Shown here piece after piece: positions 9,981 to 45,250 of a stretch of 64,000 nucleotides of DNA (position 1 is the stretch's first letter; each line of letters opens with the position of its first letter). The stretch spans positions 1,824,742 to 1,888,741 of the forward strand of contig NZ_QSNG01000001.1 of the NCBI RefSeq assembly GCF_003416765.1. Direction: 5' to 3'. Source of the stretch: Paratractidigestivibacter faecalis. GTDB taxonomy: Bacteria > Actinomycetota > Coriobacteriia > Coriobacteriales > Atopobiaceae. Under the pieces are notes generated by a model that did not search any database, was not told where the DNA came from, and saw only the letters and a list, made by a program, of their open reading frames with translations. A program made the position numbers and the translations under genes.

Positions 9981-10032
9981 GGCGTGGTTCCTTTCGTCTT
10001 TTTGACCGGCCGCGTGGCTGGCCGGCTGGTTG

Positions 10033-12438
<2,406 letters not shown>

Positions 12439-12630
12439 GCGGCCTCCAGGCGGTCTGTCTGCTGGAGAACCAGTATACCCGCGGGCGCGCGGCAGGCGGG
12501 AACGTCCACGCAGGCCGCACGAGGCCGGCGGGTGGCAGCGCAAAGGCGCGCGGGGGAACGTAAATCAATGGCAATTCGCTTTCGTGCGGACTCGCGGAGT
12601 GCGCGGGACGTCGTCAAGGCCCCAAACTTA

Positions 12631-12883
12631 GTGCAGAACGCAGCTTCGTGTGAGTAGTTTGGGCAAGGCCGGTGCAGAAGTGGGCTTCGTGCGAGCGCCT
12701 TTCCGGGGAGCGGTGACGCCCGTCGCGAAAGTTATGCATCCCAACCAACGCCCACCTGCGGTTTCCCGCCCGAAATATTCATTGCTTTCTTGATATAGCT
12801 TCCAAGGAGCGAAAAAGGCCTCGCACGAAGCGGACTTCCGCACCGGCAGAGCAAAATCACTCACACGAAGGTGACTTCTGCAC
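12631..12883. repeat. Nested inverted-repeat element, copy A
   Basis: About 253 bp in the dnaX/GH3 gap. Two forward units (12631-12655, 12672-12695; GTGCAGAA..., ...CTTCGTGYGAG) face two inverted units (12820-12843, 12859-12883). Between them lies a non-repeated core with an AT-rich patch, AATATTCATTGC (12774-12785), then TTGATAT. The rest of the 12439-12968 gap holds only the terminator at 12903-12932. Three related copies lie at 18.3, 32.1 and 45.0 kb. Confidence 0.85.
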
Positions 12884-12902
12884 CGGCCAGGCCGCAAGAA
12901 AC

Positions 12903-12932
12903 GGGCCGGGGCCCCATCCGGAGCCCCGGCCC
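12903..12932 (-). terminator. Hairpin after GH3 gene 1
   Basis: Stem GGGCCGGGG/CCCCGGCCC around the loop CCCATCCGGAG, 36 bp after the GH3-1 stop. The equivalent hairpin after GH3-2 has almost the same loop, which supports duplication of the whole cassette. Confidence 0.65.
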
Positions 12933-12968
12933 ACCGGCAAGAGTCGCCGTCGTTCGAGGTCGAACGTC

Positions 12969-15900
12969 CTACTCCCGCTCCACCCTCTCGGCACGACGCT
13001 TGACGTGGTTGCGCCAACCGGTGAAGCCGATGAGGCCCAGGCCCACAAGGCTCACGCCCGTGCCGATCCAGCGAACGTAGTCGAGCTTCTGCGGGCCGTC
13101 CACCCACACGCTGCCGTGCATGGCACCGTTCATCACGTGGCTGTTTGCCGTGGTGTAGAGCAGCTTGTGTACCGCCTCGCGGGCGTAGTGGTACTCGGCG
13201 GGGTCGTTCTGGTCAAAGCTCCACTTGGCCAGGCTCTCCGCCTGCGCGAGCTTGGAGACGCCGCCGGCCTCGATCATCTGGCTCGCGTCCATGTAGGATC
13301 CGGCGCTGGAGGCAGAGTCGGTCACAATCCAGCCGCGGAAGCCCCACTCGTTGGCGAGCACGCCCGTGAGCAGCGCGTAGTTGCCGCCCGTCCACGTGGC
13401 GCCGATGCGGTTGAAGGCGCTCATCACGGCGGTGCACGCGGGGACCTCGCGCGTGGCGGTCTTGTAGGTGTCGCCGTCCTTCTGCAGGTAGCTCATCTCA
13501 ACGTCGTCGACCTTGGTGCACATCTCAAACGGCGTGAGGTAGACCTCGCGGATGGCCTGCTCGTTTGCCCAGGTAGCCATGGACTTCTGACCAGCTGTAT
13601 CGCCGCGGTGGTTCTCCTGGTCATTGAGGGCGAAGTGTTTGATGGTGGCGTAGAGGCCCTTGCTCGCCGCGCCGCGCACCTCAAGCGAGCCCACGACGCC
13701 AGAGAGGAAGCCATCCTCGGAGTAGTACTCGCCGTTGCGGCCGGTAAACGGCGTGCGGTGGATGTTCATCGAGGGGGCATACCAGCCGGCGGCGCCGCCA
13801 AGAATCGCCTCGTTGCCGACCATCTCGCCATAGCGCGAGTAGATGTCCTGGTTGTAGGTCATGGCAACGGTAACCGGCGTGCAGTACATCACGGAATCGC
13901 CCGAGACCATGCTGCCCGCGCCGCCGTAGATGAGGCCCGCGGCGGTGTCGGCGTCCACGTTGAACGGCTTCTGGACGCTCTTGAGGCCAGCGGTGCCGTA
14001 GCCGCCCACGCCAACGCTCAGGAAGTAGTCCTCGGGCGTGAGCTCGTCAAGAAGGTCGCTCCACTTGGGGTCGTCGTAGTCCAGGCCGCGCATGTCGATG
14101 AGCTCCAGGCCGTTCTTGGCGCCATAGACGGGCTTGTCGGTGATGCTCGCGCGGTCCACGGGGCTGCCGGACTCGGTGGAGTCAAGCTTGGCGAGAAGAT
14201 CTGCGCTTGCCGTCTTGGTGTAGAGGAGCGCGGCGGGGTTGCCGTCGGCGTCAACGCCGTTGATCTCGTTGCCCCAAGTAGAGATCTGGCCGGCCATGGG
14301 CGTACCGTCGTGCGTGGGGAAGGTGCCCTCCCAGTCAGCACGGGTGAGGTAGGTCGCGTCGCCTGCGGCGGCGTCGAACTGGTTGGTGATGGCGACACCG
14401 GTCTTGGAGTCCATGGCGTAGGTGGTCACGTCGACGTCGGCGTTATCCGGGACGTAGGTCGCGACCAGCGCGGCATTGCCGCCGGCCTCGGCGCCCGCAG
14501 CGACGCCGCGAGCGGCCAGAATGTTGTTCTCGGCGGCGTGTGCGTTGGCGCCTGCGGCGATGTAGTAGGTGCCCGCGTCAAGGATGTAGGTCTTGGCACC
14601 GTTGGTGTCATAGGACTTGAGCTGCTCGCGGTCGAACTCGATGGTGAGGGTCTGGCTCTCGCCGGGCTCCAGGAGCTTGGTCTTGCCAAAGCCCACGAGC
14701 TCGACGGCGGCCTTCTCAACGCCGTTGGCGCGGTCGTAGTCGGTGTAGGGACTCTGGGCGTAGAGCTCCACGACGTCCTTGCCCGCACGGTCGCCGGTGT
14801 TCTTGACGGTCACCGTGGCGGTGCACTTCTCGCCGTTCCATGAGGTGGCAAAGTCGCTCCACTCAAAGGTGGTGTAGGAGAGGCCAAAGCCAAAGGGGTG
14901 CGTGACCTCGGCATCGTAGTCAAAGTCGCCAGCATTGCCCTGGCCGAGGACGGCGTCCTCGTAGCGGGTCTCGTAGTACTTGTAGCCGACGTAGATGCCC
15001 TCCTCGTAGGTGGCGTAGTTGTAGCCGGTGAGGTTGCCGGACTCGTCCACATACTCGTAGTCACCGTAGTTCTGTGCGGCAGGAGAGCCCAGCGGGTTGC
15101 CCGAGAAAGTGTCCGCCGTGCGACCGGACGGGTTGACGTCGCCCGCCAGGATGCCGGCGAAGGAGTCCATGCCGTAGGTGCCCAGCGACGGCACGAAGAG
15201 CACGGACTTGATGTTGGGCATGTTGCGCAGGAAGTCCAGGTCAAGCGCGGAGGCGGTGTTCACCACGAGCACCGTGTTGTCATAGTTGTCGTTGAGGTAC
15301 TGCAAGATCTCCAGCTCGGTAGTGTCGGGCTCGAGGTAGGTCTTGGCCTGGTCGACGGGATTGCTCGCGTGGTTGTACATGGAGCGCGGCATGTCTCGGC
15401 CCTCGCCGGCCACGCGGCGAAGGACAAAGATGGGCGTGGTGCCCTGGGCGCCATCCAGCATACCGTTGTCGCCCAGGACGGAGAGCGGGCACTCGTTGAT
15501 GGAGAAGTCTTCAGAGACGCCGAAGCTCTGGGAGCCGGAGCCCAGCTTGTAGTCCTTGCCGGCCCCCGTGGTATAGAAGTCAAGAAGCTCCTGGTTGACG
15601 TCCAGCCCATGGGCCTTGAGGGCGTCGGCGAGCTTGCTCAAGTCATCGCCACCCGAGCTCATAACCTGGCTCAGCATGCTTTGCGAGGACGCGAGGCTCT
15701 TGACGGACTCGCCAAAGAAGCTGAGCTTGGTGCCCTGAGCGAGCGGCAGGCTCTGGTCGTCGTTCTGGAGCATCGTGATGCCCTCGGCCGCAATTTGCTG
15801 GTCCAGCTCCTTCTGGGCGTCCTTGATGGTGTCCTTGGTGTAGTCGGCCTTGTTGTACTGCAGGTCAAGACCGTCGTCTGCGGCCTTGGAGTTGTCCCAA

Positions 15901-16073
15901 TGCTGCTCGTAGCCGAGGATGTTATTGGCCATGCGGCCTACGGAGCTCATCGTACCCGGCAGCACGACGTTCATGACCACAAGCACGGCCACCAGCGCCA
16001 CGGCCACCACAATCTTGACGGCACTCTTTATCACCCGCCCCACCTTGCGAGCGGTACTTATCTGCTTTGCCAC
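12969..16073 (-). CDS. Membrane-anchored, circularly permuted GH3 glycoside hydrolase, copy 1
   Basis: 1034 residues. One TM helix at about 14-40 (IVVAVALVAVLVVMNVVLPG) and another near the C-terminus (about 990-1015) before a basic tail. Domain order is reversed from most GH3 enzymes: alpha/beta sandwich (about 80-400), fibronectin-III-like domain (LVGFGKTKLLEPGES...), then the TIM-like barrel with KHFALNDQENHR and the nucleophile Asp in GWIVTDSA (about 919). Activity would be a beta-glucosidase or beta-N-acetylglucosaminidase-type hydrolysis outside the membrane; the substrate is unknown. A GTG start at 16073 is chosen for its GGAAGGAGGGCTA ribosome site. It is divergent from RR-1/HK-1, which probably control it. 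Confidence 0.9.
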   Translation of the reverse strand: MAKQISTARKVGRVIKSAVKIVVAVALVAVLVVMNVVLPGTMSSVGRMANNILGYEQHWDNSKAADDGLDLQYNKADYTKDTIKDAQKELDQQIAAEGITMLQNDDQSLPLAQGTKLSFFGESVKSLASSQSMLSQVMSSGGDDLSKLADALKAHGLDVNQELLDFYTTGAGKDYKLGSGSQSFGVSEDFSINECPLSVLGDNGMLDGAQGTTPIFVLRRVAGEGRDMPRSMYNHASNPVDQAKTYLEPDTTELEILQYLNDNYDNTVLVVNTASALDLDFLRNMPNIKSVLFVPSLGTYGMDSFAGILAGDVNPSGRTADTFSGNPLGSPAAQNYGDYEYVDESGNLTGYNYATYEEGIYVGYKYYETRYEDAVLGQGNAGDFDYDAEVTHPFGFGLSYTTFEWSDFATSWNGEKCTATVTVKNTGDRAGKDVVELYAQSPYTDYDRANGVEKAAVELVGFGKTKLLEPGESQTLTIEFDREQLKSYDTNGAKTYILDAGTYYIAAGANAHAAENNILAARGVAAGAEAGGNAALVATYVPDNADVDVTTYAMDSKTGVAITNQFDAAAGDATYLTRADWEGTFPTHDGTPMAGQISTWGNEINGVDADGNPAALLYTKTASADLLAKLDSTESGSPVDRASITDKPVYGAKNGLELIDMRGLDYDDPKWSDLLDELTPEDYFLSVGVGGYGTAGLKSVQKPFNVDADTAAGLIYGGAGSMVSGDSVMYCTPVTVAMTYNQDIYSRYGEMVGNEAILGGAAGWYAPSMNIHRTPFTGRNGEYYSEDGFLSGVVGSLEVRGAASKGLYATIKHFALNDQENHRGDTAGQKSMATWANEQAIREVYLTPFEMCTKVDDVEMSYLQKDGDTYKTATREVPACTAVMSAFNRIGATWTGGNYALLTGVLANEWGFRGWIVTDSASSAGSYMDASQMIEAGGVSKLAQAESLAKWSFDQNDPAEYHYAREAVHKLLYTTANSHVMNGAMHGSVWVDGPQKLDYVRWIGTGVSLVGLGLIGFTGWRNHVKRRAERVERE

Positions 16074-16137
16074 TAGCCCTCCTTCCTTCACGGGCTTCTC
16101 GCCCAACTTATCGCTACGCTCAGGCTACGTTCAGGTG

Positions 16138-16189
16138 ACAGCCGACGGGTGGCGGTGACAGAATCGGTAGCGGAGTCGGACAGAATCGG
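16138..16189. promoter_or_regulatory. Direct repeats between GH3-1 and response regulator 1
   Basis: ACAGAATCGG occurs at 16158-16167 and 16180-16189, 22 bp apart. A weaker ACAGCCGAC starts at 16138. Direct repeats about two helical turns apart are the usual arrangement of LytTR binding sites, though these do not closely match the AgrA/ComE consensus. The last repeat overlaps the RR-1 ribosome site (GGGGAG). Regulatory role inferred. Confidence 0.4.
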
Positions 16190-16195
16190 GGAGCC

Positions 16196-16906
16196 ATGTT
16201 CAAGGTCTTGATAGTCGAGGACACGCCCGCCGAGGCAGACGTTCTTCGGGGCTTTCTTGCGCGCTATGCAGCCGAGAAGCGCCTGGAGCTTAACGTGGAG
16301 ACCCTCGGCAGCGCGTTGGAGTTCATCGAGGCCAGGCGCGCGGCCGACCTCGTGCTCATGGACATCGACATGCCCGGCATCAACGGCATGGAGGCAGCGC
16401 AAATCATGCGCGGTTACGACGCCCAGACGCCGCTCATCTTTGTGACCAACCTGGCCCAGTACGCGGTGCGTGGCTACTCCGTGGACGCGCTGGACTTTGT
16501 GGTCAAGCCCGTGGAGTACCACGACTTTGCGATGCGCCTGGACCGCGCGGTGCGCATCATGACCAGAAACGCGCGCAGCACGATCGCCCTGCCTACGGAG
16601 GACGGAGTTGCCGTTGTTGCCCACTCCGACCTGCTGTTTGTTGACATGCTCAAGCATGACGTCTGTTACCACCTGGCCGATGGGCGCGTACTCAGGGAGC
16701 GCGGCACCATGCGCGCCACGGCGCAGAGGCTCGGCGAGGACGAGTTCGTGAAGGTGTCCAGCGGGTGCCTGGTCAACATGGGATGCGTCACGAGGATCGG
16801 CGCGGAATCCGTGACCGTGGCGGATGGGACGGAGCTCTTCTTCAGCAGGTCCCAGAAGAAGGCAGCGCTTGAGCGGCTGGCCAACTTCGTCGGCAGGAGC
16901 ATCTGA
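16196..16906 (+). CDS. LytTR-family response regulator, copy 1
   Basis: 236 residues. REC domain 1-120 with acidic pair VED, phosphoacceptor Asp56 in LMDIDMPGINGMEAA, Thr in FVTNLAQYAVRGY and Lys in VKPVEYHDF. LytTR DNA-binding domain from about 130 (FVDMLKHDVCYHLADG, FVKVSSGCLVNMGCVTRI). AgrA-like. Starts 122 bp from the divergent GH3-1 start. Its stop overlaps the ATG of HK-1 by one base, so the pair is translationally coupled. Confidence 0.93.
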   Translation: MFKVLIVEDTPAEADVLRGFLARYAAEKRLELNVETLGSALEFIEARRAADLVLMDIDMPGINGMEAAQIMRGYDAQTPLIFVTNLAQYAVRGYSVDALDFVVKPVEYHDFAMRLDRAVRIMTRNARSTIALPTEDGVAVVAHSDLLFVDMLKHDVCYHLADGRVLRERGTMRATAQRLGEDEFVKVSSGCLVNMGCVTRIGAESVTVADGTELFFSRSQKKAALERLANFVGRSI

Positions 16907-18270
16907 TGCCGGAGCTGGGAGCCGATGGGCTGGTAGCCCTGGTGTACGCGCTCTCCGCCGTGGTGACGCTGGGCAGCGTTGGCGGCGGCATCCTCATGTT
17001 CACGTGCCGGTTAGCGCGACGGGAGCGCTTTGGGGCGCGGATTGCCGCACTGGCCGCTGCGGTGGGGCTTCTCGCCGTGGCCGGAGCGGGGCTAGCGCCA
17101 GCCTTCACGGACGCGGATGGGGCCTCCTACCTGCTGCAGCTTGGGCTCTTCTCGGCGATGCTTGCGCTTTTGGTGGGCGTCGTAGCGTGGCTGTACAAGG
17201 CCACGCCGTGGACGGCGCTGTTCTGTTGCACGGCAGGATACGCGCTGCAGAACTTTGCGTCCGGACTGACGGAACTTTGCTGGCTGCTGGCGGGGGTGCC
17301 CGAGGCAGCCGACGGCTCGCTGGGGGCGCACCTGACGAGGTTTGCCATCAACGTTACCTGTATCCTTGCCGTCTACGTGCCGTTTTACCTGGCGTTTGTG
17401 CGCAAGCTCGGGCGAGAGGCACTGGAGCAGATAGAGAACCCGGCGCTGTTGGCCATCATGGCGGCAGTCATGCTCGGCGTCATTGGGTTTGACCTGCTCA
17501 TCAAGTGCATTGGGGACTTTGGCTGGATCGAGGACTGGTGCATGGTGCCGCTGCGCGTGTCCCATGGGCTCATGTGCATCCTGACCTTTGCGCTTGAGTA
17601 CGAGCTGCTGGTCAACAGGCGCCTGCAGATCGAACGGGAGGCCGAAGCGCGCGTGCATGCGGAGCGCGAGCGGCAGTATGAGCTCAGCCGCGCCAACATA
17701 GAGGCCATCAACGTCAAGTGCCACGACATCAAACACCAAATCAGAGCGCTGGCTGGCGGCGCCGTTGCGGACCCGCGGGCGCTGGCGGACCTCGCGCATG
17801 AGGTGGAGTTCTACGACTCTGCCGTGCGCACCGGCAACGAGGCTCTGGACACCATTCTCACGGAGAAGCGCCTGACCTGCACAAACGAGGGAATCACCCT
17901 GAGCTGCGTGGCGGATGGTGCCGCACTTGGCTTCATGCGAGACGCAGACATCTACTCCTTCTTTGGAAACGCCCTGGACAATGCCATCGAGGCCACGCGC
18001 GGGCTGGACGACATCGCAATGCGCAGCGTCAGCCTGGTGGTGAGGCAGGTTGCCGGTGTGGCCTCCATCCACGTGGAGAACCGTTATGCGCACGAGCCCG
18101 TGGTCAACGGGGAGGGAACGCTCCTTACCAGCAAAGACGACATCGCCAACCACGGCTTTGGGCTGCGGTCCATGCGGCTCACGGTGGAGGGGTACGGAGG
18201 CACGCTGGCCACTCTCGTGGACCGCGAGGGACGCACGTTCCACGTCAACGCAATGATTCCGTTGCCGTAA
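16906..18270 (+). CDS. GHKL-domain sensor histidine kinase, copy 1
   Basis: 454 residues. Six or so TM helices in residues 8-230 form the sensor, with no obvious extracellular domain. A coiled-coil-like linker (about 235-265) leads to the phosphoacceptor His273 in NVKCHDIKHQIR, N box FFGNALDNAIEA and G box HGFGLRSM. The layout is like AgrC/quorum-sensor kinases (HATPase_c_5), but no peptide pheromone gene was found nearby. The signal could be a sugar, wall fragment or peptide. Confidence 0.92.
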   Translation: MPELGADGLVALVYALSAVVTLGSVGGGILMFTCRLARRERFGARIAALAAAVGLLAVAGAGLAPAFTDADGASYLLQLGLFSAMLALLVGVVAWLYKATPWTALFCCTAGYALQNFASGLTELCWLLAGVPEAADGSLGAHLTRFAINVTCILAVYVPFYLAFVRKLGREALEQIENPALLAIMAAVMLGVIGFDLLIKCIGDFGWIEDWCMVPLRVSHGLMCILTFALEYELLVNRRLQIEREAEARVHAERERQYELSRANIEAINVKCHDIKHQIRALAGGAVADPRALADLAHEVEFYDSAVRTGNEALDTILTEKRLTCTNEGITLSCVADGAALGFMRDADIYSFFGNALDNAIEATRGLDDIAMRSVSLVVRQVAGVASIHVENRYAHEPVVNGEGTLLTSKDDIANHGFGLRSMRLTVEGYGGTLATLVDREGRTFHVNAMIPLP

Positions 18271-18336
18271 GGAGCTTGGGAACCTAACGTGCAGGCGGCT
18301 ATTAGGGCTCGACTGGCAACTCGAAGCCCGAACCCT

Positions 18337-18588
18337 GTGCAGAACGCGCCTTCGTGTGAGTGATTTTCTGCGGCTTGTGCAGAAGTGGCCTTGGTGTGAG
18401 TGCCTTTCGGAGGCTTTGGCAGCAAGCCGTGGGAGTTTATGCAGCCGCCCGCATTGCGAGCTGCGGTTTCCCACGAAGATATACATTGCGTTATTGATAT
18501 TTGCCCCCAAGGCCCGAAAAGGGACTCGCACCAAGCGCACTTCTGCACAGCCAAAGTCAAGACACTCGCACGAAGGGGAGTTCTGCAC
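18337..18588. repeat. Nested inverted-repeat element, copy B
   Basis: 252 bp. Forward units 18337-18361 and 18377-18401 (GTGCAGAA..., ...CTTCGTGTGAGT) and inverted units 18524-18548 and 18564-18588. The core has GATATACATTGC and TTGATATTTG. It sits between HK-1 and the GH3-2 terminator, the same place in the cassette as copy A. Apart from this and the terminator, the gap 18271-18679 holds nothing recognisable. Confidence 0.87.
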
Positions 18589-18605
18589 AGCGGGCGCCGC
18601 AAAAA

Positions 18606-18635
18606 GGGCTGGGACCCCATCTGGAGTCCCAGCCC
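18606..18635 (-). terminator. Terminator of GH3 gene 2
   Basis: Stem GGGCTGGGA/TCCCAGCCC with loop CCCCATCTGGAG, followed on the minus strand by TTTTT. 44 bp after the GH3-2 stop. Confidence 0.8.
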
Positions 18636-18679
18636 ATCGTGCCGCAGAGCGTCACATCGGTCAACAAGCGGCCAAAACC

Positions 18680-21505
18680 CTACTCCTTGCCCTCCTTGCG
18701 GCTGCGAATCCAGGTCGCAATGCGTCCGGCGGGCTTGCCGGCCTCACGCCAGCGGACCATACGGACGTGGCGGCGCCACAGGTAGAGGCCAAAGAGCGCG
18801 GCGACCACGACATCGAGCACGATGAAGAAGGTGAGCACGGTTCCACGCAGGCTCGGCACGGCGGCGTATTCAGTCGCGGAGCTATTGGCCACCATATAGA
18901 GCACGTTGTGCGTGGCACGACGCAGGGCCTGGTGGCCAGACGCAGTGCCGGTTGTGTCATTGGTCAAGTACAGGTCCTGCAGCAGGTTAAGGCTGAGGTC
19001 GTTGCCGGCACGCAGGCTGCGGTTGGGGTCAGACGTGCTGGCGGCCATGGTGCAGTCAGTGACGACGGCGCCACGGAAGCCCCACTCGCCACGCAGAACG
19101 TCCGTCAAAGCCGCTGAGCTCTCGGCCACGGGCGTGGTTCCCAGGCGGTTGTACGCGCTCATCATGCCCGTAGCGCCGCCATCCTTGACCACAATCTCAA
19201 ACGCGCGAAGGTAGATCTCGCGGAGCGACTGCTCGTTTGCCCAGGTAACAAGGCCACCGTCGGCGCGGTGGGTCTCCTGGTCGTTGGCAATGAAGTGCTT
19301 GACGTAGGCATAGACGCCCTCGCTCTGCATCCCCGACACCTCCGCGGCGACCATCTTGCCCGTGAGCACCGGGTCCTCGCCCACATACTCGTAGTTACGG
19401 CCGCCGAAGGCGCTGCGATGCGTGTCGGCGCCCGGAGCATAAAGGCCACCAATGCCGTAGGCGTGCGCCTCCTGTCCAAAGAGTTGGCCCAGACGCTGCG
19501 CAAGCTCCACATTCCAGGTGTAGCCAAGCGTGCTCTGGCCAGTGAGTTGAGTGCCCTGCACGCCAGTCTGAAGGTTGTTGACGCCGTTGGGTCCGTCGCA
19601 CTCCACGATTACGGGCTTCTCGACAGAAGGCACGCTGGTGGTCGCCCAGCCGGCGTTGCCCACGAGCCTCTCCATCTCGTCGAGGGTCACCTGGTCGAGA
19701 AGGTCATTCCACTTGGGGTCGTCGTAGTCAAGGCCACGCACGTCCTCCAGCGTCAGCCCGTTCTTCTTGCCGGTCACGATGTCCTCGACGTCGGCGTTCT
19801 CGAGCGGCGCCGGGCTCGTGAGGGCCTGAATCTGCTCGTCGGTAGCGTCCTTGACCGCCGCCGGGCGCTCGGTGGGCATGGTGCCCGCCCAGTCCGCGCG
19901 AGAGAGGTATGTCACGTCGTCGCCATAGGAAACGTCGTCAAAGCGGTTGACGGCAGTCTCGTCGTCGCTCGCGCGCTTGCCGTCGTTGGCGTCGTTGTAG
20001 ATGACGTCGGCATCCACGTGCACGGTGCGGGAGTCGACCACGTTGTGGGAGTCAGTTTGAAGGTTGATGGCGTAGTCACCGGCTTCCAGCACGTAGGAGC
20101 CTCCCTCGGCCTTCACGCCCGTGTAGTCGTAGCTTGCTATGTCCTCCTTGGCAAAGCTGATGGTTAGCGCCTGGCTCTCGCCGGGCTCGAGCAGCTTGGT
20201 CTTCTGGAAGCCCGCGAGGACCACAGAGCTCTTCTCGATGCCGCCCTTGGTGTACGGGGCGCCCACGTAGATCTGCACCACCTGCTTGCCGGCGACGGAA
20301 CCGGTGTTGGTGACGGTCACCTTGGCCGTAATGGTGGTGCCATCGTCCTCAACGTCGTCCAACTTCTGATCAAACGTGGTGTACGAGAGACCATAGCCAA
20401 ACGGGTACTGCACCGTGGAGTCATAGTCGATGAAGCCGTCGGCAGCGGCGGTCTCAAAGTAACGGTACCCGACGTAGATGCCCTCCTGGTAGTCCACGAA
20501 GTAGAACGGGGTGGTGCCGGCGACGGCATCGCCTGTGCCTGCGAGTATAGCGGTGTTGGTGGTCGTCACGTTGTCGTAGGCGAACTCGCCAAAGTTGTAG
20601 TAGCTCGGCGCGCTCTCCTGCGCATACGGGAAGGTGTCAACGGTCTTGCCAGACGGGTTAACCTCGCCCGTCAGCACCTTGCCGATGGAGTTGCATCCCG
20701 TGGCGCCCGGCGTGCCCACCCAGATGGCGGCGTCGACAGCCTCGTTGTCAAGGAAGCCAAGCTCCATGGCATTGGGCGAGTTCAGCACCACAACCACCTT
20801 GGAGAAGTTCTTCTCGACCATGGCGAGAAGATCCTCCTCGTTAGGGGTGATCTCGAGGTAGTTGCGGCCCGCCTCGGATCCGGTGAAGTTCGCCATATCC
20901 ATCGGCAGGTCGGTGCCCTCGCCGCCCTTGCGGGTCAGAACCACGAGCGCGGTATCGGAGTAGTCGCGAGCGGCATCGATAAGCGCCGGGTCGTAGTCGG
21001 ACTGCGGCAGCTCATAGTTGTTGAAGTCAGTACCAACGAGTCCGTAAGAGATGGACTCGGGGGCGTTCTGGTCATAGAAGGCCTTGAGGTCCTCGTTGAC
21101 CTGGATGCCGGCGTTGGCAAGGCCCTGGTAGAATGAGACGTTATTGGACTCGTTGCCAGCTCCGGATCCGGTTCCGCCATAGCTGAAGTTGTTACCGGCC
21201 GTGGAGCCAAAGACGTTGACCTTGGCTCCAGCGGCCAGCGGCAGCGCGCCATCGTCCTTGAGCAGCGTCACTGCCTCGGACTCGACCTCCTCCGTGATGG
21301 CAGCGGTCGCGGCGCTTGCGGACTTTGCCTGCTCGCTCGAGGTATCCGCCACCGATACGTACGGAGCCGCGAGGTCCGCGTGCGGGACCACCAGCACGTA
21401 CCCCACGACCGAGAACGCCGCGACCAGCGCGACCAGCAGACACACGATGACCAATAGCGGCCTGTTGGCGCGACGCGGGGCGTGCGGCTTCTTCTCTCCT
21501 CCCAT
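18680..21505 (-). CDS. Membrane-anchored, circularly permuted GH3 glycoside hydrolase, copy 2
   Basis: 941 residues, a paralogue of the 13-16 kb gene and about 90 residues shorter. N-terminal TM at about 16-40 (LLVIVCLLVALVAAFSVVGY), alpha/beta sandwich, fibronectin-III-like domain (VLAGFQKTKLLEPGESQ), then the barrel with YVKHFIANDQETHR and nucleophile Asp in GAVVTDCTM (about 817). A C-terminal TM (about 885-910) precedes a basic tail. ATG at 21505 follows GGAAGGAAC. Divergent from RR-2/HK-2. The substrate is probably not identical to that of copy 1, as many loop regions differ. Confidence 0.9.
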   Translation of the reverse strand: MGGEKKPHAPRRANRPLLVIVCLLVALVAAFSVVGYVLVVPHADLAAPYVSVADTSSEQAKSASAATAAITEEVESEAVTLLKDDGALPLAAGAKVNVFGSTAGNNFSYGGTGSGAGNESNNVSFYQGLANAGIQVNEDLKAFYDQNAPESISYGLVGTDFNNYELPQSDYDPALIDAARDYSDTALVVLTRKGGEGTDLPMDMANFTGSEAGRNYLEITPNEEDLLAMVEKNFSKVVVVLNSPNAMELGFLDNEAVDAAIWVGTPGATGCNSIGKVLTGEVNPSGKTVDTFPYAQESAPSYYNFGEFAYDNVTTTNTAILAGTGDAVAGTTPFYFVDYQEGIYVGYRYFETAAADGFIDYDSTVQYPFGYGLSYTTFDQKLDDVEDDGTTITAKVTVTNTGSVAGKQVVQIYVGAPYTKGGIEKSSVVLAGFQKTKLLEPGESQALTISFAKEDIASYDYTGVKAEGGSYVLEAGDYAINLQTDSHNVVDSRTVHVDADVIYNDANDGKRASDDETAVNRFDDVSYGDDVTYLSRADWAGTMPTERPAAVKDATDEQIQALTSPAPLENADVEDIVTGKKNGLTLEDVRGLDYDDPKWNDLLDQVTLDEMERLVGNAGWATTSVPSVEKPVIVECDGPNGVNNLQTGVQGTQLTGQSTLGYTWNVELAQRLGQLFGQEAHAYGIGGLYAPGADTHRSAFGGRNYEYVGEDPVLTGKMVAAEVSGMQSEGVYAYVKHFIANDQETHRADGGLVTWANEQSLREIYLRAFEIVVKDGGATGMMSAYNRLGTTPVAESSAALTDVLRGEWGFRGAVVTDCTMAASTSDPNRSLRAGNDLSLNLLQDLYLTNDTTGTASGHQALRRATHNVLYMVANSSATEYAAVPSLRGTVLTFFIVLDVVVAALFGLYLWRRHVRMVRWREAGKPAGRIATWIRSRKEGKE

Positions 21506-21640
21506 GTTCCTTCCTTCCCGGGCGCGACGCGCCCACTAGCCCAACGTAACTGCCCGCATCCTACGAACGGGCAACTCGCGTTTGGGAACGATGACTTAAA
21601 ATGCGCCAAGAGGGACTTAGTTGACGGAGGGGATTCGCCT

Positions 21641-22354
21641 TTGTATCGAGCGCTCATCGTGGAGGACGACGCTTGCGCAGCCGACGTGCTGCGCAGCCAC
21701 CTCGCGCGCTTTGCCGCCGAGAAGGGCACGGGCTTCTCCATTGAGATTCTTGGGAGCGCATTAGAGCTCCTTGAGGGCAACCACCCTGCCGACGTGATCT
21801 TTCTTGATATTGGCCTGCCCGGCATCAACGGCATGGAAGCCGCGGAGATCATTCGGCAGAAGGACCAGGTCACACCTCTCGTCTTTGTGACCGACCTCGC
21901 CCAGTACGCCGTGCGCGGGTACCAGGTGGACGCCGTCGACTTCATGGTGAAGCCCATCGCCTACGAGGACTTTTCCCTGCGGATGGGCCGCGTCATACGT
22001 GTCATGGCCAGAAACGACTCCGAGGCCGTGAGCCTCTCCACCGCAAGCGGCCTGCGCATGGTGCCCGCAAAGGACATCGTCTTCGTGGAGATTTTGAAGC
22101 ATGACCTCTACTGGCACATTGCGGGCGAGGCGGAGCCGCTGCGCATGCGTGGCTCCATCAAGGAAACCGCCGAGCTGCTAGGCGAGGAGCGCTTCTGCCG
22201 AATCTCCGCAAGCCATATCGCCAATATGGGGCAGGTCAAGCGAGTCCGCGCCAACGAGCTGACCATGAGCGACGGCAGCGAGCTGAGCATCTCGCGGTCA
22301 AGAAAGGCGCAGGTGCTCGAGGCGCTGGCGCGCTACGCAGGGGCAAGCCAGTGA
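21641..22354 (+). CDS. LytTR-family response regulator, copy 2
   Basis: 237 residues from a TTG start at 21641, chosen because GGAGGGG lies 8 nt upstream and the length then matches copy 1 (236). REC domain with LIVEDD, phosphoacceptor Asp in IFLDIGLPGINGMEAA, VTDLAQYAVRGYQVDAVDF and the VKPIAYEDF lysine. LytTR domain from about 130 (FVEILKHDLYWHIAG, FCRISASHIANMGQVKRV). Divergent from GH3-2. The stop overlaps the HK-2 ATG by one base, exactly as in copy 1. Confidence 0.92.
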   Translation: MYRALIVEDDACAADVLRSHLARFAAEKGTGFSIEILGSALELLEGNHPADVIFLDIGLPGINGMEAAEIIRQKDQVTPLVFVTDLAQYAVRGYQVDAVDFMVKPIAYEDFSLRMGRVIRVMARNDSEAVSLSTASGLRMVPAKDIVFVEILKHDLYWHIAGEAEPLRMRGSIKETAELLGEERFCRISASHIANMGQVKRVRANELTMSDGSELSISRSRKAQVLEALARYAGASQ

Positions 22355-23694
22355 TGGTTGCGGAGACCTCAGACATCGAACTCGTCGAGCTGGTGCTCCT
22401 CTGTGCCCTCGTTCGCGTCTACCTTGGAATGGGACTCTTCTCTCAGAAACTGCCCAAGAAGCCAGCGTTCTGGCCGAAGCTTGGGCTCGCGACGCTCGCT
22501 CTCGTCCTGCACTTTGCCCTCATGGTTGCCGCCTGCCTGGTTGCAGCACCAGAGGGCCCTTCGGCGGGATATGTGTTCCAGGCAGTCTTCTTCTCGCTTC
22601 TGCAGCCGCTTTTGATTTATGGTTTGATGTATTTGTATGACGTCTCCGTATGGACGGCATCCTTCTGCGCGACGGCCGGCTACACCATCCAGAACCTTGC
22701 CTCGGGTGCCATGGAGCTCGTCTCCTCCCTTGCGGCAACGATGGGCGCGGCACCGGCGACCATCTCATTCCACCTGGTCGTCAACTTCATTTGCATACCA
22801 CTGACCTATGTACCTTGCTATCTCCTGTTCTCCCGCAGGCTCGAGCAACGCGGCCTTGAGACGGTGGAGAACCACGGCATGCTTGCCATGATGCCCGTTG
22901 TCTGCCTTGTGATAATTGGCTTCGACGTCTTGATCAAGTGCCTGGCGGCAGACGGCATAGCGCCCTGCTACTTTGTCGCCTTGCGCCTGCTGCACGGGCT
23001 TCTCTGCGTGGCGCTTCTGTGGGTCGAGTATCAAATGCTGTACCGAACGCACCTAGAGCAGGAACAGGCGACGACCGAGCGCCTGCTGGCAGAGCACGAT
23101 CGGCAGCTGCGCCTTTCTCGAGAGAACGTGGAGGCCATCAACATCAAGTGCCACGATCTGCGCCATCAGATCCGCTCGCTCGCGCAGGGCGGCGCCGTGG
23201 TGAGCGGCGAGGCGCTGGCCGACCTCGCACACGACATCTCGATCTACGACTCGTCCGTCAAGACCGGCAACGAGGCGCTGGACACCATCCTCACCGAGAA
23301 GCGGCTGCTGTGCGAGAGCCGCAAGATCACGCTGACCTGCGTTGCGGACGGCGGCGCGCTGGCCTTCATGGCCGCAGCGGACATCTACGCGCTGTTCGGA
23401 AACGCGCTGGACAACGCCATAGAAGCGGTGACCACCCTCGACGACCAGGCAAAGCGCTCCATCACGCTTGTGGTGCGGCAGGTCATGGGGTGCGCAAGCG
23501 TCCACGTGGAGAACTATTGCGACGCGGCGCCCGCGTTCGTGGACGGAATGCCGCAGACCAGCAAGGCAGACCGCGCATCGCACGGCTTTGGCGTCAGGTC
23601 CATGCGGCAGACGGCCGAGCGCTACGGAGGCACCTTCTCCGCCAGCGCAGACGATGGAACCTTCCGACTGGACATCATGATTCCGCTCCCATAG
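22354..23694 (+). CDS. GHKL-domain sensor histidine kinase, copy 2
   Basis: 446 residues, a clear paralogue of HK-1. Multi-TM sensor over residues 8-230, phosphoacceptor His267 in AINIKCHDLRHQIR, the shared stretch KTGNEALDTILTEKRL, N box LFGNALDNAIEA and G box HGFGVRSM. The ATG at 22354 is preferred; a GTG lies one codon earlier. Sensor helices differ more from HK-1 than the kinase domain does, suggesting different signals. Confidence 0.92.
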   Translation: MVAETSDIELVELVLLCALVRVYLGMGLFSQKLPKKPAFWPKLGLATLALVLHFALMVAACLVAAPEGPSAGYVFQAVFFSLLQPLLIYGLMYLYDVSVWTASFCATAGYTIQNLASGAMELVSSLAATMGAAPATISFHLVVNFICIPLTYVPCYLLFSRRLEQRGLETVENHGMLAMMPVVCLVIIGFDVLIKCLAADGIAPCYFVALRLLHGLLCVALLWVEYQMLYRTHLEQEQATTERLLAEHDRQLRLSRENVEAINIKCHDLRHQIRSLAQGGAVVSGEALADLAHDISIYDSSVKTGNEALDTILTEKRLLCESRKITLTCVADGGALAFMAAADIYALFGNALDNAIEAVTTLDDQAKRSITLVVRQVMGCASVHVENYCDAAPAFVDGMPQTSKADRASHGFGVRSMRQTAERYGGTFSASADDGTFRLDIMIPLP

Positions 23695-23755
23695 GGGCCT
23701 CCCCGCGGCTCGTCCCGCAGGGCAGTTCGGCAGTCGCGATTGCCAACGTCGATAC

Positions 23756-23894
23756 AAACTTCGTCTTGTATGTATCACTTTGGCTAGTTCCTGAGTAGCC
23801 GCCGCTATTTTCTTGGCGTTTTCCCAGTTGTTTCGGCTCGCAAATGCCGGTCTACTTGCAACTTCTCAAAAGTGATACATACAAGACGAAGTTT
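23756..23894. repeat. Inverted repeat with perfect 25-bp arms between HK-2 and the MFS gene
   Basis: Arms 23756-23780 and 23870-23894 (left begins AAACTTCGTCTTGTATGTAT) are exact complements separated by 89 bp. The 23695-23960 gap has nothing else. No second copy was seen in the window. Confidence 0.85.
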
Positions 23895-23960
23895 GCCGTC
23901 GGCGAGCTGCCCAAGGTCGCCCCGCCGACGGCAAATCACGGTCGAATCTGCCAGATTGCG

Positions 23961-25169
23961 CTATGCCGTACGCCCGCGAGCCTCCGCCAGCGCCTTGGAG
24001 AAGCTCGTCTCGCTGTGGCGAGCCCACATGACGTAGAGCGCAATGCTCGCCACGCAGGCCAGAGACACCAGCGCCCACATGTTGCCGTAGCCCACCGAGG
24101 TAATAAGCACGCCAGAGACGCCGCCGCCCAGGCCATAGCCGATGTCATATCCGCACAGGAAGGTGGAGTTGGCCGAACCGCGCGTCTCGTCGGTGGCGGT
24201 GTGGACGGCCATGGATTGCAGGGCCGGCTCCAGGCCGCCAAAGGCGTATCCGGCCAGCGCGCCAGAGACCAGGAAGGTCGCCACGTTGGGCACAAAGGCC
24301 AAAAGCAGCAGCGCGCAGATCATGGCCGCGTTGCCCGTGTAGACGAAGAAGGCCTCGCCGCGCTCGTCCACCAGCTTTCCCAGGAAGACGCGGACCAGCA
24401 GCAGGACCACGGACATGACCACAAAGTAGAGCGAGCCAGAGGGCAGCCCCTCGTTTGCCGCGTAGATGGCGACGAAGTTCTCAAGCGCGCCGAAGGTGAA
24501 CATGAAGACCAGCATGGTGCAGGTTGCCGGCAGAGAGTCCCTGTTGACGAGGCCCTTCAGGCTGAGCGGGCGCTTCTCCACCTTCGGCTTGGGCGTGCGG
24601 ATGAAGCAGAACAGCACCAGCGCCAGCACGGAGATTGCCGCCGCGGCCAGGTAGAGCACGTTGAAGCCAAAGCCCATGAGCTCGAGACCCAGCGCCGGAG
24701 CGATGGCGCTGGCCAGGGCCGTTGCCATGCCAAAGTAGCCCATGCCCTCGGCAAATCGCGGGCGGGCAATGACGTCGGAGGCGACGGTCGCCGTGGTGGA
24801 GTTGGAAAGCGAGAGCGCCGCGCCATGCACCATGCGGAACAGGATCGCCATGGAGAGCACGGGCACGCAGACGTAGCCCACCGGGGCCAAAGCCAGCAGG
24901 ACCAGGCCCGCCACTAGCACCGCCCTGCGGGCGCCGTTGTCCAGCCACCAGCCCACAAAGGGCCTCACCACAACGGCCACCAGGCAGAAGAACGCCGCAC
25001 ACATGCCAGCCTGGGCCTCGGTACCGCCCAGACTCTGGATGTAGAACGGAAAGGTCGAGAGGCTCATGATGTGGTTGGTGAAGACGCACAGGTTGACCAG
25101 GATGATCAACACCAGGTCACGCGTCCACAGCTTGCACGGCGATTTCTGGCGAGAAGAACTTGCTTGCAC
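23961..25169 (-). CDS. MFS transporter
   Basis: 402 residues with about 12 TM helices. The loop 2-3 signature appears as VRPFVGWWLDNGARRAVL (about 68-85), and a related motif, FLGKLVDERGEAFF, follows TM8. The two six-helix halves are joined by the KPKVEKRPLSLKGLV loop. A drug- or metabolite-efflux type is likely from the length, but the substrate is unknown. Start is GTG at 25169, with GAAGGGAATC upstream. The promoter side is flanked by a palindromic repeat that has been split by an insertion sequence. Confidence 0.88.
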   Translation of the reverse strand: MQASSSRQKSPCKLWTRDLVLIILVNLCVFTNHIMSLSTFPFYIQSLGGTEAQAGMCAAFFCLVAVVVRPFVGWWLDNGARRAVLVAGLVLLALAPVGYVCVPVLSMAILFRMVHGAALSLSNSTTATVASDVIARPRFAEGMGYFGMATALASAIAPALGLELMGFGFNVLYLAAAAISVLALVLFCFIRTPKPKVEKRPLSLKGLVNRDSLPATCTMLVFMFTFGALENFVAIYAANEGLPSGSLYFVVMSVVLLLVRVFLGKLVDERGEAFFVYTGNAAMICALLLLAFVPNVATFLVSGALAGYAFGGLEPALQSMAVHTATDETRGSANSTFLCGYDIGYGLGGGVSGVLITSVGYGNMWALVSLACVASIALYVMWARHSETSFSKALAEARGRTA

Positions 25170-25304
25170 GTTTGATTCCCTTCGACGAGACGGAACATGG
25201 CCGTCCGAGGAAGGTCGAGCGGCCCATCAATTGGACTTACGCCACAGGGCCACTCATTGACGCAGGTCATTATAGCCGTCCGCCCCGCAAATTGGGGACG
25301 TGTT

Positions 25305-26743
25305 GGGGGTGCGGACGAAAAGTTGGACGCCGACAGGCGTCCGGATTGGAGCCCGCAATGTACTCGAGCGACGAGAGGGACGCCATCCTGGGGCTCTGGC
25401 GCGAGTCCGGCCGGCCGGCCCACAGGTTCGCCAGGGAGTCGGGGCTCGCCTCCGCCGAGTCGATCAGGCGCTGGGCGTCCGGCGACCTGGGCGTCGGCTG
25501 GCACGCCCCCTATACTCTTGCCCAGAGGGCCGACGCCGCGCGCAGGGCGCTCGCCGGGGAGGACCCCGCCGAGGTCGCCGCGTCGATCGGCTGCCACCCG
25601 GAGACCGTGCGCGGCTGGGCCCGCGCCGCGGGGAGGGAGGGCGAGGTGTCGCTCGCGAACGGACGGGGCGCCCCGCGCGTGCCGCCGCCGGCCGACCCCG
25701 GGGACCTGGAGGCCCTCAGGGCCGAGAACCGGGCCCTGAGGCTGGAGCTCGCCAGGGCCGAGGCGGTGTTGGACGTCCTAAAAGGAGGCGGCCCGGGGCG
25801 GGGCCCGGACTCGCTGACGGCGGCGGAGAGGGCGCTGGTCGCCGACGCCCTTAGGCCCGGGTTCGGCCTGGAGGACGCCCTGCGCGCGGCCGGCGTGGCG
25901 CGCAGCACCTACTACTACCACCGCGCCCGCAGGGGCGCCCCCGACCGCCTGGCCGCCCTGAGGGCGCGGGTGCGCGCCCTGTTCGAGGCCGGGGGCGGGG
26001 CCTGGGGCTACCGCACGATATGGGCGAGGCTGCGCCTGGACCCCGACGAGCCCCTGGCGGTCTCCGAGAAGGTCGTGAGGCGCGTCATGCGCGAGGAGGG
26101 GCTCGAGGTGCGCTACCTGAGGCGCCGCAGGCGCTGGAGCAGCTATGCCGGCGAGGTCTCCGAGGCCCCTCCCAACCTGCCGCTGCGCCCCGACGGCACC
26201 CACGACTTCTCCGCCTCGCGCCCCAACGAGCTGTGGGTCACCGACGTCACCATGTTCACGATAGGGTCGGGGCGCTGCTGGCTGTCGCCGGTGGTCGACT
26301 GCTTCGACGGGGCGGTCGTGGCGTGGACCCTGTCGGAGTCCCCCGACGCCCGCATGGCCGACTCGATGCTGGAGGCGGCGGCCTCGACGCTCGCGGCCGG
26401 CGAGCGGCCCGTGGTCCACACCGACCGCGGCTGCCACTACAGGTGGCCGGGCTGGGCGGCGATATGCGAGCGCCACGGCCTGGTGCGCAGCATGTCGAGG
26501 AAGGGCCGCAGCCCCGACAACGCCGCGGCCGAGGGCTTCTTCGGCCGGCTCAAGCAGGAGTTCTACCACGGCAGGGACTGGTCCGGGGTGGGCTTCGAGG
26601 AGTTCCGGCGGCGCCTGGCGGGCTACCTCGCCTACTACAACTCGGGCAGGATCAAGCGGAGCCTGGGGTGGAGGAGCCCGGAGCAGTACCGCAGGGACCT
26701 GGGGTACTCTCTCCGTAGTGTCTAAGAAATTGTCCGCACCCCC
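25305..26743 (+). mobile_element. IS3-type insertion sequence (1439 bp)
   Basis: Terminal inverted repeats of 12 bp, GGGGGTGCGGAC at 25305-25316 and its exact complement at 26732-26743. A 3-bp target duplication GTT flanks it at 25302-25304 and 26744-26746. One transposase gene fills it. The GC content of the transposase is visibly above that of the neighbours. Clean ends and an intact gene suggest a recent arrival. Confidence 0.93.
25358..26725 (+). CDS. IS3-family transposase (single ORF)
   Basis: 455 residues from ATG 25358, with GGAG 9 nt before it. The N-terminal part (about 1-95) has two helix-turn-helix-like segments, followed by a leucine-rich coiled coil (about 117-142). The DDE core has Asp266 (ELWVTDVTMF), Asp326 (VVHTDRGCHY) and Glu362 (DNAAAEGFFGRLKQEF), the DD35E spacing. 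Most IS3 elements need a frameshift between orfA and orfB. Here both parts are in one uninterrupted frame. Confidence 0.95.
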   Translation: MYSSDERDAILGLWRESGRPAHRFARESGLASAESIRRWASGDLGVGWHAPYTLAQRADAARRALAGEDPAEVAASIGCHPETVRGWARAAGREGEVSLANGRGAPRVPPPADPGDLEALRAENRALRLELARAEAVLDVLKGGGPGRGPDSLTAAERALVADALRPGFGLEDALRAAGVARSTYYYHRARRGAPDRLAALRARVRALFEAGGGAWGYRTIWARLRLDPDEPLAVSEKVVRRVMREEGLEVRYLRRRRRWSSYAGEVSEAPPNLPLRPDGTHDFSASRPNELWVTDVTMFTIGSGRCWLSPVVDCFDGAVVAWTLSESPDARMADSMLEAAASTLAAGERPVVHTDRGCHYRWPGWAAICERHGLVRSMSRKGRSPDNAAAEGFFGRLKQEFYHGRDWSGVGFEEFRRRLAGYLAYYNSGRIKRSLGWRSPEQYRRDLGYSLRSV

Positions 26744-32097: not shown

Positions 32098-32349
32098 GCG
32101 CAGAACTACCCTTCGTGTGAGTCATTCGGCAGCGCGTGTGCAGAAGTGGCCTTCGTGTGAGCCAGATTCCGCCGTTTTTGACGCACATCAAAATCTAAAT
32201 GTATATTCTTGAGGCAAAGCGGCTGTTGGCTTAGACGGAGCCTGCATATAATCAGACGGCCCCGGTCCACGGCAGCCAAGAGGCACTCACACGAAGGCCA
32301 CTTCTGCACACGCGCTGCCGAATGACTCACACGAAGGGCAGTTCTGTGC
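32098..32349. repeat. Nested inverted-repeat element, copy C
   Basis: 252 bp, the most symmetrical copy. Units 32098-32122 and 32138-32161 face 32285-32309 and 32325-32349. The outer 60 or so bases on each side, including the 15-bp spacer (CATTCGGCAGCGCGT), are complementary except one base. The AT-rich core (ATGTATATTCTT) is in the opposite orientation to the other copies. It follows the PAP2 stop by 3 bp. Confidence 0.9.
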
Positions 32350-33019: not shown

Positions 33020-33739
33020 CTACAGCCCGAGCGCGCGCTTGAGCGCAACGACGCGACGGCGCGAGACGGAGATCTTCTTGCCCTCGATGCCATTGATGCC
33101 CAGCTGTAGGATGCCGGAGGAGATGACCTCGACGTCCTCCACGTACTCAAGGTTGACGATGTAGCCGCGGTGCACGCGGAAGAACCCGTGCGGCGCGAGC
33201 TTCTGTTCAAGCTTGGCCAGGCTGATGGTGGAGAGGAACCTGTCCACGTCGGTGTAGATGCAGGAGTAGTCGTCCTTGGCCTCGATGTAGCGAATCTGGT
33301 CGATGGGCACCAGCACCTTGCGTCCGCTCTTGACCACCGGAATGCGCTCCACGGCTGAGTGGCTCTGCGGCTCCTCGGGCTTCATGCGGCCCTGGACCTT
33401 GTCCAGCGCCTGCGCAAGGCGCTCGGGCTCCACGGGCTTCATCAGGTAGTCAACGGCGTCCACGCCAAAGGCGTCAAGCGCGTACTCGCTGTAGGCCGTC
33501 ACAAAGACGATGGCCGGCGGGTTCTTGAGCTTGTGCAGGGCCTCGGCCAGCTGCATGCCGGACGTCTTGGGCATCTGGATGTCCAGGAACATGACGTCCA
33601 CCTTGCCGTCCATCAGGCGCTCCACGGCCTCGCGGGCGCTTGAGGCCTCCATGATGCCGTCGATGCGACCGGTCTCCTCGAGCAGGTAACGCAGCTCGGA
33701 GCGAGCGGGCGCCTCGTCGTCAACGATCATTGCGCGCAT
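33020..33739 (-). CDS. LytR/LytT-type response regulator
   Basis: 239 residues. REC domain with VDDE, phosphoacceptor Asp53 in FLDIQMPKTSGM, FVTAYSEYALDAFGVDAVDY and the Lys in LMKPVEPERL. LytTR domain from about 135 (IRYIEAKDDYSCIYT, FFRVHRGYIVNLEYV). This is the LytSR/BtsR type, distinct from the two AgrA-like regulators at 16-22 kb. ATG 33739 has GGGGGA 7 nt upstream. Cotranscribed with lytS. Confidence 0.95.
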   Translation of the reverse strand: MRAMIVDDEAPARSELRYLLEETGRIDGIMEASSAREAVERLMDGKVDVMFLDIQMPKTSGMQLAEALHKLKNPPAIVFVTAYSEYALDAFGVDAVDYLMKPVEPERLAQALDKVQGRMKPEEPQSHSAVERIPVVKSGRKVLVPIDQIRYIEAKDDYSCIYTDVDRFLSTISLAKLEQKLAPHGFFRVHRGYIVNLEYVEDVEVISSGILQLGINGIEGKKISVSRRRVVALKRALGL

Positions 33740-33784
33740 GTGCAAATCCCCCTGTTACGTCCGCTTGGGCGCGTGTTTCTACGC

Positions 33785-44999: not shown

Positions 45000-45250
45000 G
45001 CACAGAAGTGGCCTTCGTGTGAGCGATTTGGCTTCGGCTGCGCAGAAGTGCCCTTCGTGCGAGCCCCTTTCTGGGGGCCTTACCCGAAGACCTCAAGCAG
45101 TATGCATTTCCGGTAGAGCGTAACTGGCCTTATGCCTGAAAATATTCATTGCCAAATTTATATGGCTTTAAAACCCAAGAACCAGGCTCACACCAAGGCC
45201 ACTTCTGCGCAGCCGAAGCCAAATCGCTCACACGAAGGCCCGTTCTGCAC
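45000..45250. repeat. Nested inverted-repeat element, copy D
   Basis: 251 bp. Units 45000-45023 and 45040-45063 face 45186-45210 and 45226-45250. The spacers (GATTTGGCTTCGGCT and its complement) also pair. AT-rich core AAATATTCATTGCC at about 45139-45152. It fills most of the gap between the HAD gene and the cysteine desulfidase gene (44931-45312). Confidence 0.87.

Follow-up and report, generated by a model that had tools for sequence, protein, structure and literature searches.

To our knowledge, the SusC/D systems by which glycan sensing in Bacteroides is explained are absent from Gram-positive gut bacteria. The locus described here, from Paratractidigestivibacter faecalis, raises the question of whether a membrane-held glycosidase can be placed under the control of a two-component system of its own. 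In the window (the whole stretch of 64,000 nucleotides that was analysed), two cassettes stand back to back, W1 at 12969-18270 and W2 at 18680-23694, and in each of them a GH3 gene on the minus strand is divergent from a LytTR regulator gene and a GHKL histidine kinase gene on the plus strand. Each cassette is, in our judgement, likely to be a local glycoside-responsive two-component switch for its extracellular beta-glycosidase.

The gene order, coordinates and strands given in the original prediction were matched by the sequence and by Pfam. In W1, the GH3 gene occupies 12969-16106 (minus), its likely true start, as read from the sequence, being a GTG at 16073 behind AAGGAGGG, which gives a protein of about 1034 aa; the response regulator gene lies at 16196-16906 (plus) and the kinase gene at 16906-18270 (plus). 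In W2, the corresponding genes are a GH3 of 941 aa (18680-21505, minus), a regulator with a TTG start (21641-22354, plus) and a kinase (22354-23694, plus), for which a GTG start at 22351 is possible. The regulators are 236 and 237 residues long, as had been claimed, and in both cassettes the regulator and kinase genes share one base within TGATG. Receiver and LytTR domains score above the Pfam cut-off in both regulators, as does HATPase_c_5 (PF14501) in both kinases, each of which carries a multi-pass sensor. Two near-identical hairpins behind the GH3 genes are also present: the one 3' of GH3 W2 (18606-18635, minus) was scored as terminator-like in a terminator scan, and the matching GC-rich hairpin 3' of GH3 W1 (approximately 12903-12932, minus) was read from the sequence and has no score in that scan.

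Both GH3 enzymes were found by Pfam to have the domain order GH3_C - Fn3 - GH3_N (C-domain, Fn3 and barrel, the middle domain being Fn3-like), so that they are circularly permuted. This topology was established with GlyA1 (5K6L-O; PMC5104943), which, together with the beta-glucosidase of Paenibacillus barengoltzii (5WUG), shares the domain order and provides the best structural matches. An AlphaFold2 model of GH3 W2 (pLDDT 89.8, pTM 0.90) matches 5WUG and 5K6L-O over nearly the whole chain, with TM scores by target length of at most 0.83, and beta-glucosidases are the closest solved folds. The catalytic nucleophile D and the acid/base E are invariant in an alignment of all 76 full-length permuted GH3s; in GH3 W2 these are D817 and E196, which align with D242 and E458 of Thermotoga neapolitana Bgl3B (2X40), where D242 is marked as catalytic by the D242A entry 2X42. 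By its predicted catalytic residues, the GH3 would thus be a complete exo-beta-glycosidase. It had also been claimed that the enzymes are held to the membrane at both ends, and hydrophobic helices do occur at both termini, the C-terminal one of W1 lying below a simple hydropathy threshold; 66 of the 76 full-length permuted GH3s have such a helix at each end. In the GH3 W2 model these are long helices at residues 15-50 and 887-922, and basic residues lie beside both of them, on the outer sequence ends, which is consistent with an extracellular enzyme whose two tails would both lie in the cytoplasm. The permuted topology may suit an enzyme that is tied to the membrane at both ends; the GlyA1 paper mentions neither transmembrane anchors nor a linked two-component system (PMC5104943).

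The phospho-acceptor histidine (H268) is invariant in all 92 aligned kinases. An AlphaFold2 model of kinase W2 (pLDDT 91.5) has seven membrane helices, the seventh of which extends into the dimerisation helix. In a structure comparison dominated by the kinase domain, so that the sensor fold was barely probed, the best solved match to the kinase part of the model was the cytoplasmic region of AgrC (Z 16); at the sequence level, no solved structure matched the kinase profile. Sensors have diverged further than kinase domains, as the original prediction had noted: between W1 and W2 the sensor halves are 38% identical and the kinase cores 60%, and over 69 loci the mean identities are 16% and 41%, respectively.

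The resemblance to AgrC/AgrA, which combine a multi-pass, similarly diverged sensor and a GHKL kinase with a LytTR regulator, raises the possibility of a quorum-sensing circuit in which the kinase would serve as a peptide receptor of the Agr type, with the GH3 among the targets. Unlike in AgrC/AgrA, however, the pairs here are linked to glycosidases, and no match to AgrB (PF04647) was found in their own genome, so that the quorum-sensor-like character originally proposed holds for the kinase domain but not for the system around it. Among 14 genomes, four AgrB proteins scored above the cut-off, each adjoining a GHKL kinase without a permuted GH3 nearby; since AgrB in the same genomes adjoins other kinases, the GH3-linked kinases form a group separate from real Agr kinases. 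No conserved peptide-processing gene was seen in the neighbourhoods among open reading frames of at least 100 aa, and a peptide receptor appears improbable.

The reading of each cassette as a glycoside-responsive switch rests first on the linkage of kinase and GH3. With profiles built from the window proteins, eight regulator-kinase pairs were found in the organism's own 2.1-Mb genome, and all eight adjoin a GH3 gene. Six of them lie outside the two window cassettes; these, like the circular permutation, had been missed by the original prediction, whose observation on the cassettes is partly confirmed. Two kinds of GH3 stand beside the kinases, namely GHP, which is permuted and membrane-anchored, and GHT, which is non-permuted and carries a twin-arginine signal and a lipobox. 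GHT members occur at loci L024, L025 and L026, paired with the same kinase family, and no curated NCBIfam model covers the one GHT protein that was checked. One pair precedes an open frame of 2364 residues with two GHP units (L021:4865-11959; G000:C1, about 1572.9-1580.0 kb), and two full-length permuted GH3 genes in this genome stand alone, without a kinase pair. Another receiver-LytTR regulator is encoded in the window at 33023-33754 (minus) and falls, by score, outside the GH3-linked family.

In relatives, the kinase alignment was scanned against one genome per species, and among the best 80 of 496 loci a GH3, mostly full-length and permuted, lies in the flank of 74; three of the other six loci end directly behind the kinase. 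These 80 loci come mostly from Clostridia, and span Coriobacteriia, Lachnospiraceae, Oscillospiraceae, other Clostridia, Bifidobacterium asteroides, Listeria valentina and Caldibacillus. The usual order in Clostridia is regulator, kinase and GH3 on one strand, and in Coriobacteriia the arrangement is divergent. In 12 whole genomes, which were picked via the loci and are thus biased towards hits, a GHKL kinase was found within 10 kb of 61 of the 76 permuted GH3 genes, where chance placement would give about 5, and of 12 of the 41 canonical ones; lone permuted GH3s occur in this set as well. A less biased test drew 61 genomes evenly from the window's own family. The kinase is present in 24 of these, and all 24 also hold GHP or GHT, one or the other of which is found in 30 genomes (Fisher p 1e-11). 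Of the 76 kinases in this sample, 57 have GHP or GHT within 2 kb and 62 have one within 10 kb; inspection of the loci adds five more, four next to canonical GH3s (L121, L122) and one (L040) next to a GH3 truncated by the end of its contig, which leaves about nine for which no GH3 was found nearby. Seen from the enzyme, the family sample has 94 permuted GH3 genes, of which 48 are within 10 kb of such a kinase (about 4 expected). The original prediction had named GH3 genes mostly without the pair in related genomes as its refutation; when this was put to the test, the kinases proved to lie nearly always beside a GH3 in relatives, and permuted GH3s beside a kinase at the two frequencies given. 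A connection with the GH3 by which bee Bifidobacterium degrades amygdalin (PMC9897726) was considered and rejected, as the best match of the primer in B. asteroides (C1:607650) is more than 100 kb from any GHKL kinase found there.

Recurring neighbours of these loci are GPH/MFS sugar transporters, GH78 rhamnosidases, GH2 enzymes and canonical GH3s, which point to glycoside use. They bear on a further explanation, in which the substrates would be envelope glycans of the cell itself, cleaved during turnover of wall or glycolipids, and envelope stress would be the signal for the kinase. Wall genes are controlled by GHKL/LytTR pairs in other bacteria, the enzymes here are placed outside on the membrane, and a GtrA-like gene adjoins canonical GH3s at some loci, all of which would fit; yet the closest solved folds are beta-glucosidases, rhamnosidases, GH2 enzymes and sugar transporters are among the neighbours, the distribution is patchy (24 of the 61 family genomes), and permuted GH3s are typical of gut bacteria on plant diets (PMC5104943). 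A role in envelope turnover is accordingly regarded as unlikely. At five clostridial loci (L048, L050, L061, L076 and L099), permuted GH3 genes are also accompanied by a recurring protein of about 280 residues, whose N-terminus is signal-like and which has no match in Pfam.

Direct repeats upstream of 26 regulators of the family peak at a step of 21 bp (33 observed against 3.1 expected, with none of 200 shuffles as high), and a smaller peak lies at 42 bp in the same spectrum. Two nine-base direct repeats with a 12-bp gap are the established arrangement of LytTR sites (PMC6193735), and the 21-bp repeats of the regulator-side promoters, being typical of such sites, are candidates of this type. 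In the divergent promoter of W1, a putative array (16137-16189, plus), read from the sequence and from the repeat scan, consists of GACAGAATCGG at 16157-16167 and 16179-16189, a step of 22 bp, with a partial third copy, GACAG, at 16137, which is 20 bp before the first; half-sites resembling those of W1 are present in L038, L040, L042 and L043. The candidate in W2 (21565-21596, plus) is weak: it was read from the sequence, having been missed by the automatic repeat scan, and has GAACG at 21565 and 21586, 21 bp apart, with six of nine bases matching. In combining a LytTR regulator with direct repeats at a 12-bp gap, the cassettes are like the LytTR Regulatory Systems of the HdrRM/BrsRM type, but those pair a one-component LytTR regulator with a membrane inhibitor, whereas a receiver domain and a kinase are present here (PMC6193735).

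Taken together with the conserved linkage, these 21-bp LytTR-type repeats strongly support the original claim of a surface hydrolase under its own kinase/regulator pair, and the interpretation offered there is, as a whole, partly supported. In the mechanism that we favour, the seven-helix GHKL kinase would sense an outside signal, most likely a beta-glycoside or its cleavage product, and would phosphorylate its LytTR regulator. The regulator would in turn bind the direct repeats spaced at 21-22 bp in the divergent promoter and activate the GH3 gene as well as, probably, the operon to which it belongs itself; the direction of this control is the presumed one, and repression in place of activation is conceivable. 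The GH3, held by helices at both ends on the outer face of the membrane, would then trim small glycosides at the cell surface. A cell with several paralogous pairs, whose sensors have diverged and whose GH3s are of different types, could answer several glycosides, and diversification of the cassettes for different substrates, as suggested originally, is plausible.

A permuted enzyme with a helix at both ends, and with a conserved link to a membrane kinase, could also be imagined as a co-sensor that binds the glycoside and signals to the kinase within the membrane, substrate binding or turnover outside being passed via the two GH3 membrane helices to the adjacent seven-helix kinase. Kinase and GH3 distances do correlate (Mantel r 0.41-0.47, uncorrected for species kinship), but the correlation with the GH3 is no stronger for the sensor half than for the kinase core (0.346 each), and kinases of this family also serve GH3s that have no C-terminal anchor (the Tat lipoprotein type) as well as canonical GH3s (L121, L122), so that this reading has no special support. 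The catalytic residues are, moreover, all retained in the permuted GH3s. We consider both the co-sensor and the relay through its two helices very doubtful; if true, gut bacteria would have in these enzymes a new class of co-sensor for glycosides.

The two cassettes do not appear to stem from a recent duplication. The original prediction had described them as a tandem duplication, which fails for the enzymes: GH3 W1 and GH3 W2 are 36% identical, lie in different deep clades and are united in 0% of bootstrap trees, so that the back-to-back layout is not a recent whole-cassette duplication, which the GH3 tree rules out for these genes. In fully supported clades, W1 groups with enzymes of Faecalicatena and Pseudobutyrivibrio and with one half of the 2364-residue protein of its own genome, to which it is 61% identical, and W2 groups with Olsenella L039 and L038, sharing 67% identity with the Olsenella sp. 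L039 enzyme. Kinase W2 is likewise closer to the L038 kinase (53%) than to kinase W1. The kinase tree is compatible with an old shared origin of the W1 and W2 regulator pairs, and the pairs seem to have been re-used with different GH3 genes.

A similar association has been described in Butyrivibrio proteoclasticus B316, where Kelly and colleagues (2010) noted three LytTR response regulators, each close to a secreted GH3 with a C-terminal transmembrane helix (PUL7, 21 and 33), and suspected a common function of the two (PMC2914790). The present finding is therefore an extension of that sentence and not a first sighting. The Butyrivibrio report covers one genome in one sentence and is silent on permutation, second anchor, binding sites, divergent order and breadth; unlike there, the cassettes here are divergent and paralogous, in an Atopobiaceae-type genome. 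It was the sole direct prior art found in the openly searchable literature on LytTR, GHKL and GH3, subscription papers lying outside the search, and nowhere in the literature searched was the Butyrivibrio association found united with the permuted topology of GlyA1, nor was there a description of the second anchor, of the breadth, of the repeats in the promoters or of the second class of GH3. As the partnership of kinase and GH3 recurs across gut Coriobacteriia, Clostridia and bifidobacteria, it is probably a widespread means, hardly described so far, of sensing and cutting plant-type glycosides. A module of kinase, regulator and GH3, of which a genome often carries several paralogous copies, would give these bacteria a general route to sensing plant or drug-like beta-glycosides and deglycosylating them at the surface.

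A repeat element had also been assigned to each cassette, and one copy does follow each GH3 gene, but the element is present at about 25 places in the genome (68 units), which rules it out as a cassette part. Its four places in the window are 12632-12882, 18338-18587, 32099-32348 and 45001-45249. The element, of about 250 bp and possibly MITE-like, consists of two 23-nt units (TGCAGAANNNNNCTTCGTGNGAG) 40 bp apart, an AT-richer middle and then two inverted units, also 40 bp apart; no Rfam family was found in window positions 10000-26000. A long minus-strand open reading frame that looks like dnaX contains two in-frame palindromic insertions (10304-10400 and 11003-11093; 75 nt, 87% alike), whose exact core pattern is found at no other place in the genome and which encode a peptide of the LGASP...ARSAERRA type. 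Between kinase W2 and an MFS transporter gene lies a perfect 27-nt inverted repeat (23755-23781 and 23869-23895) with 87 nt between its arms.
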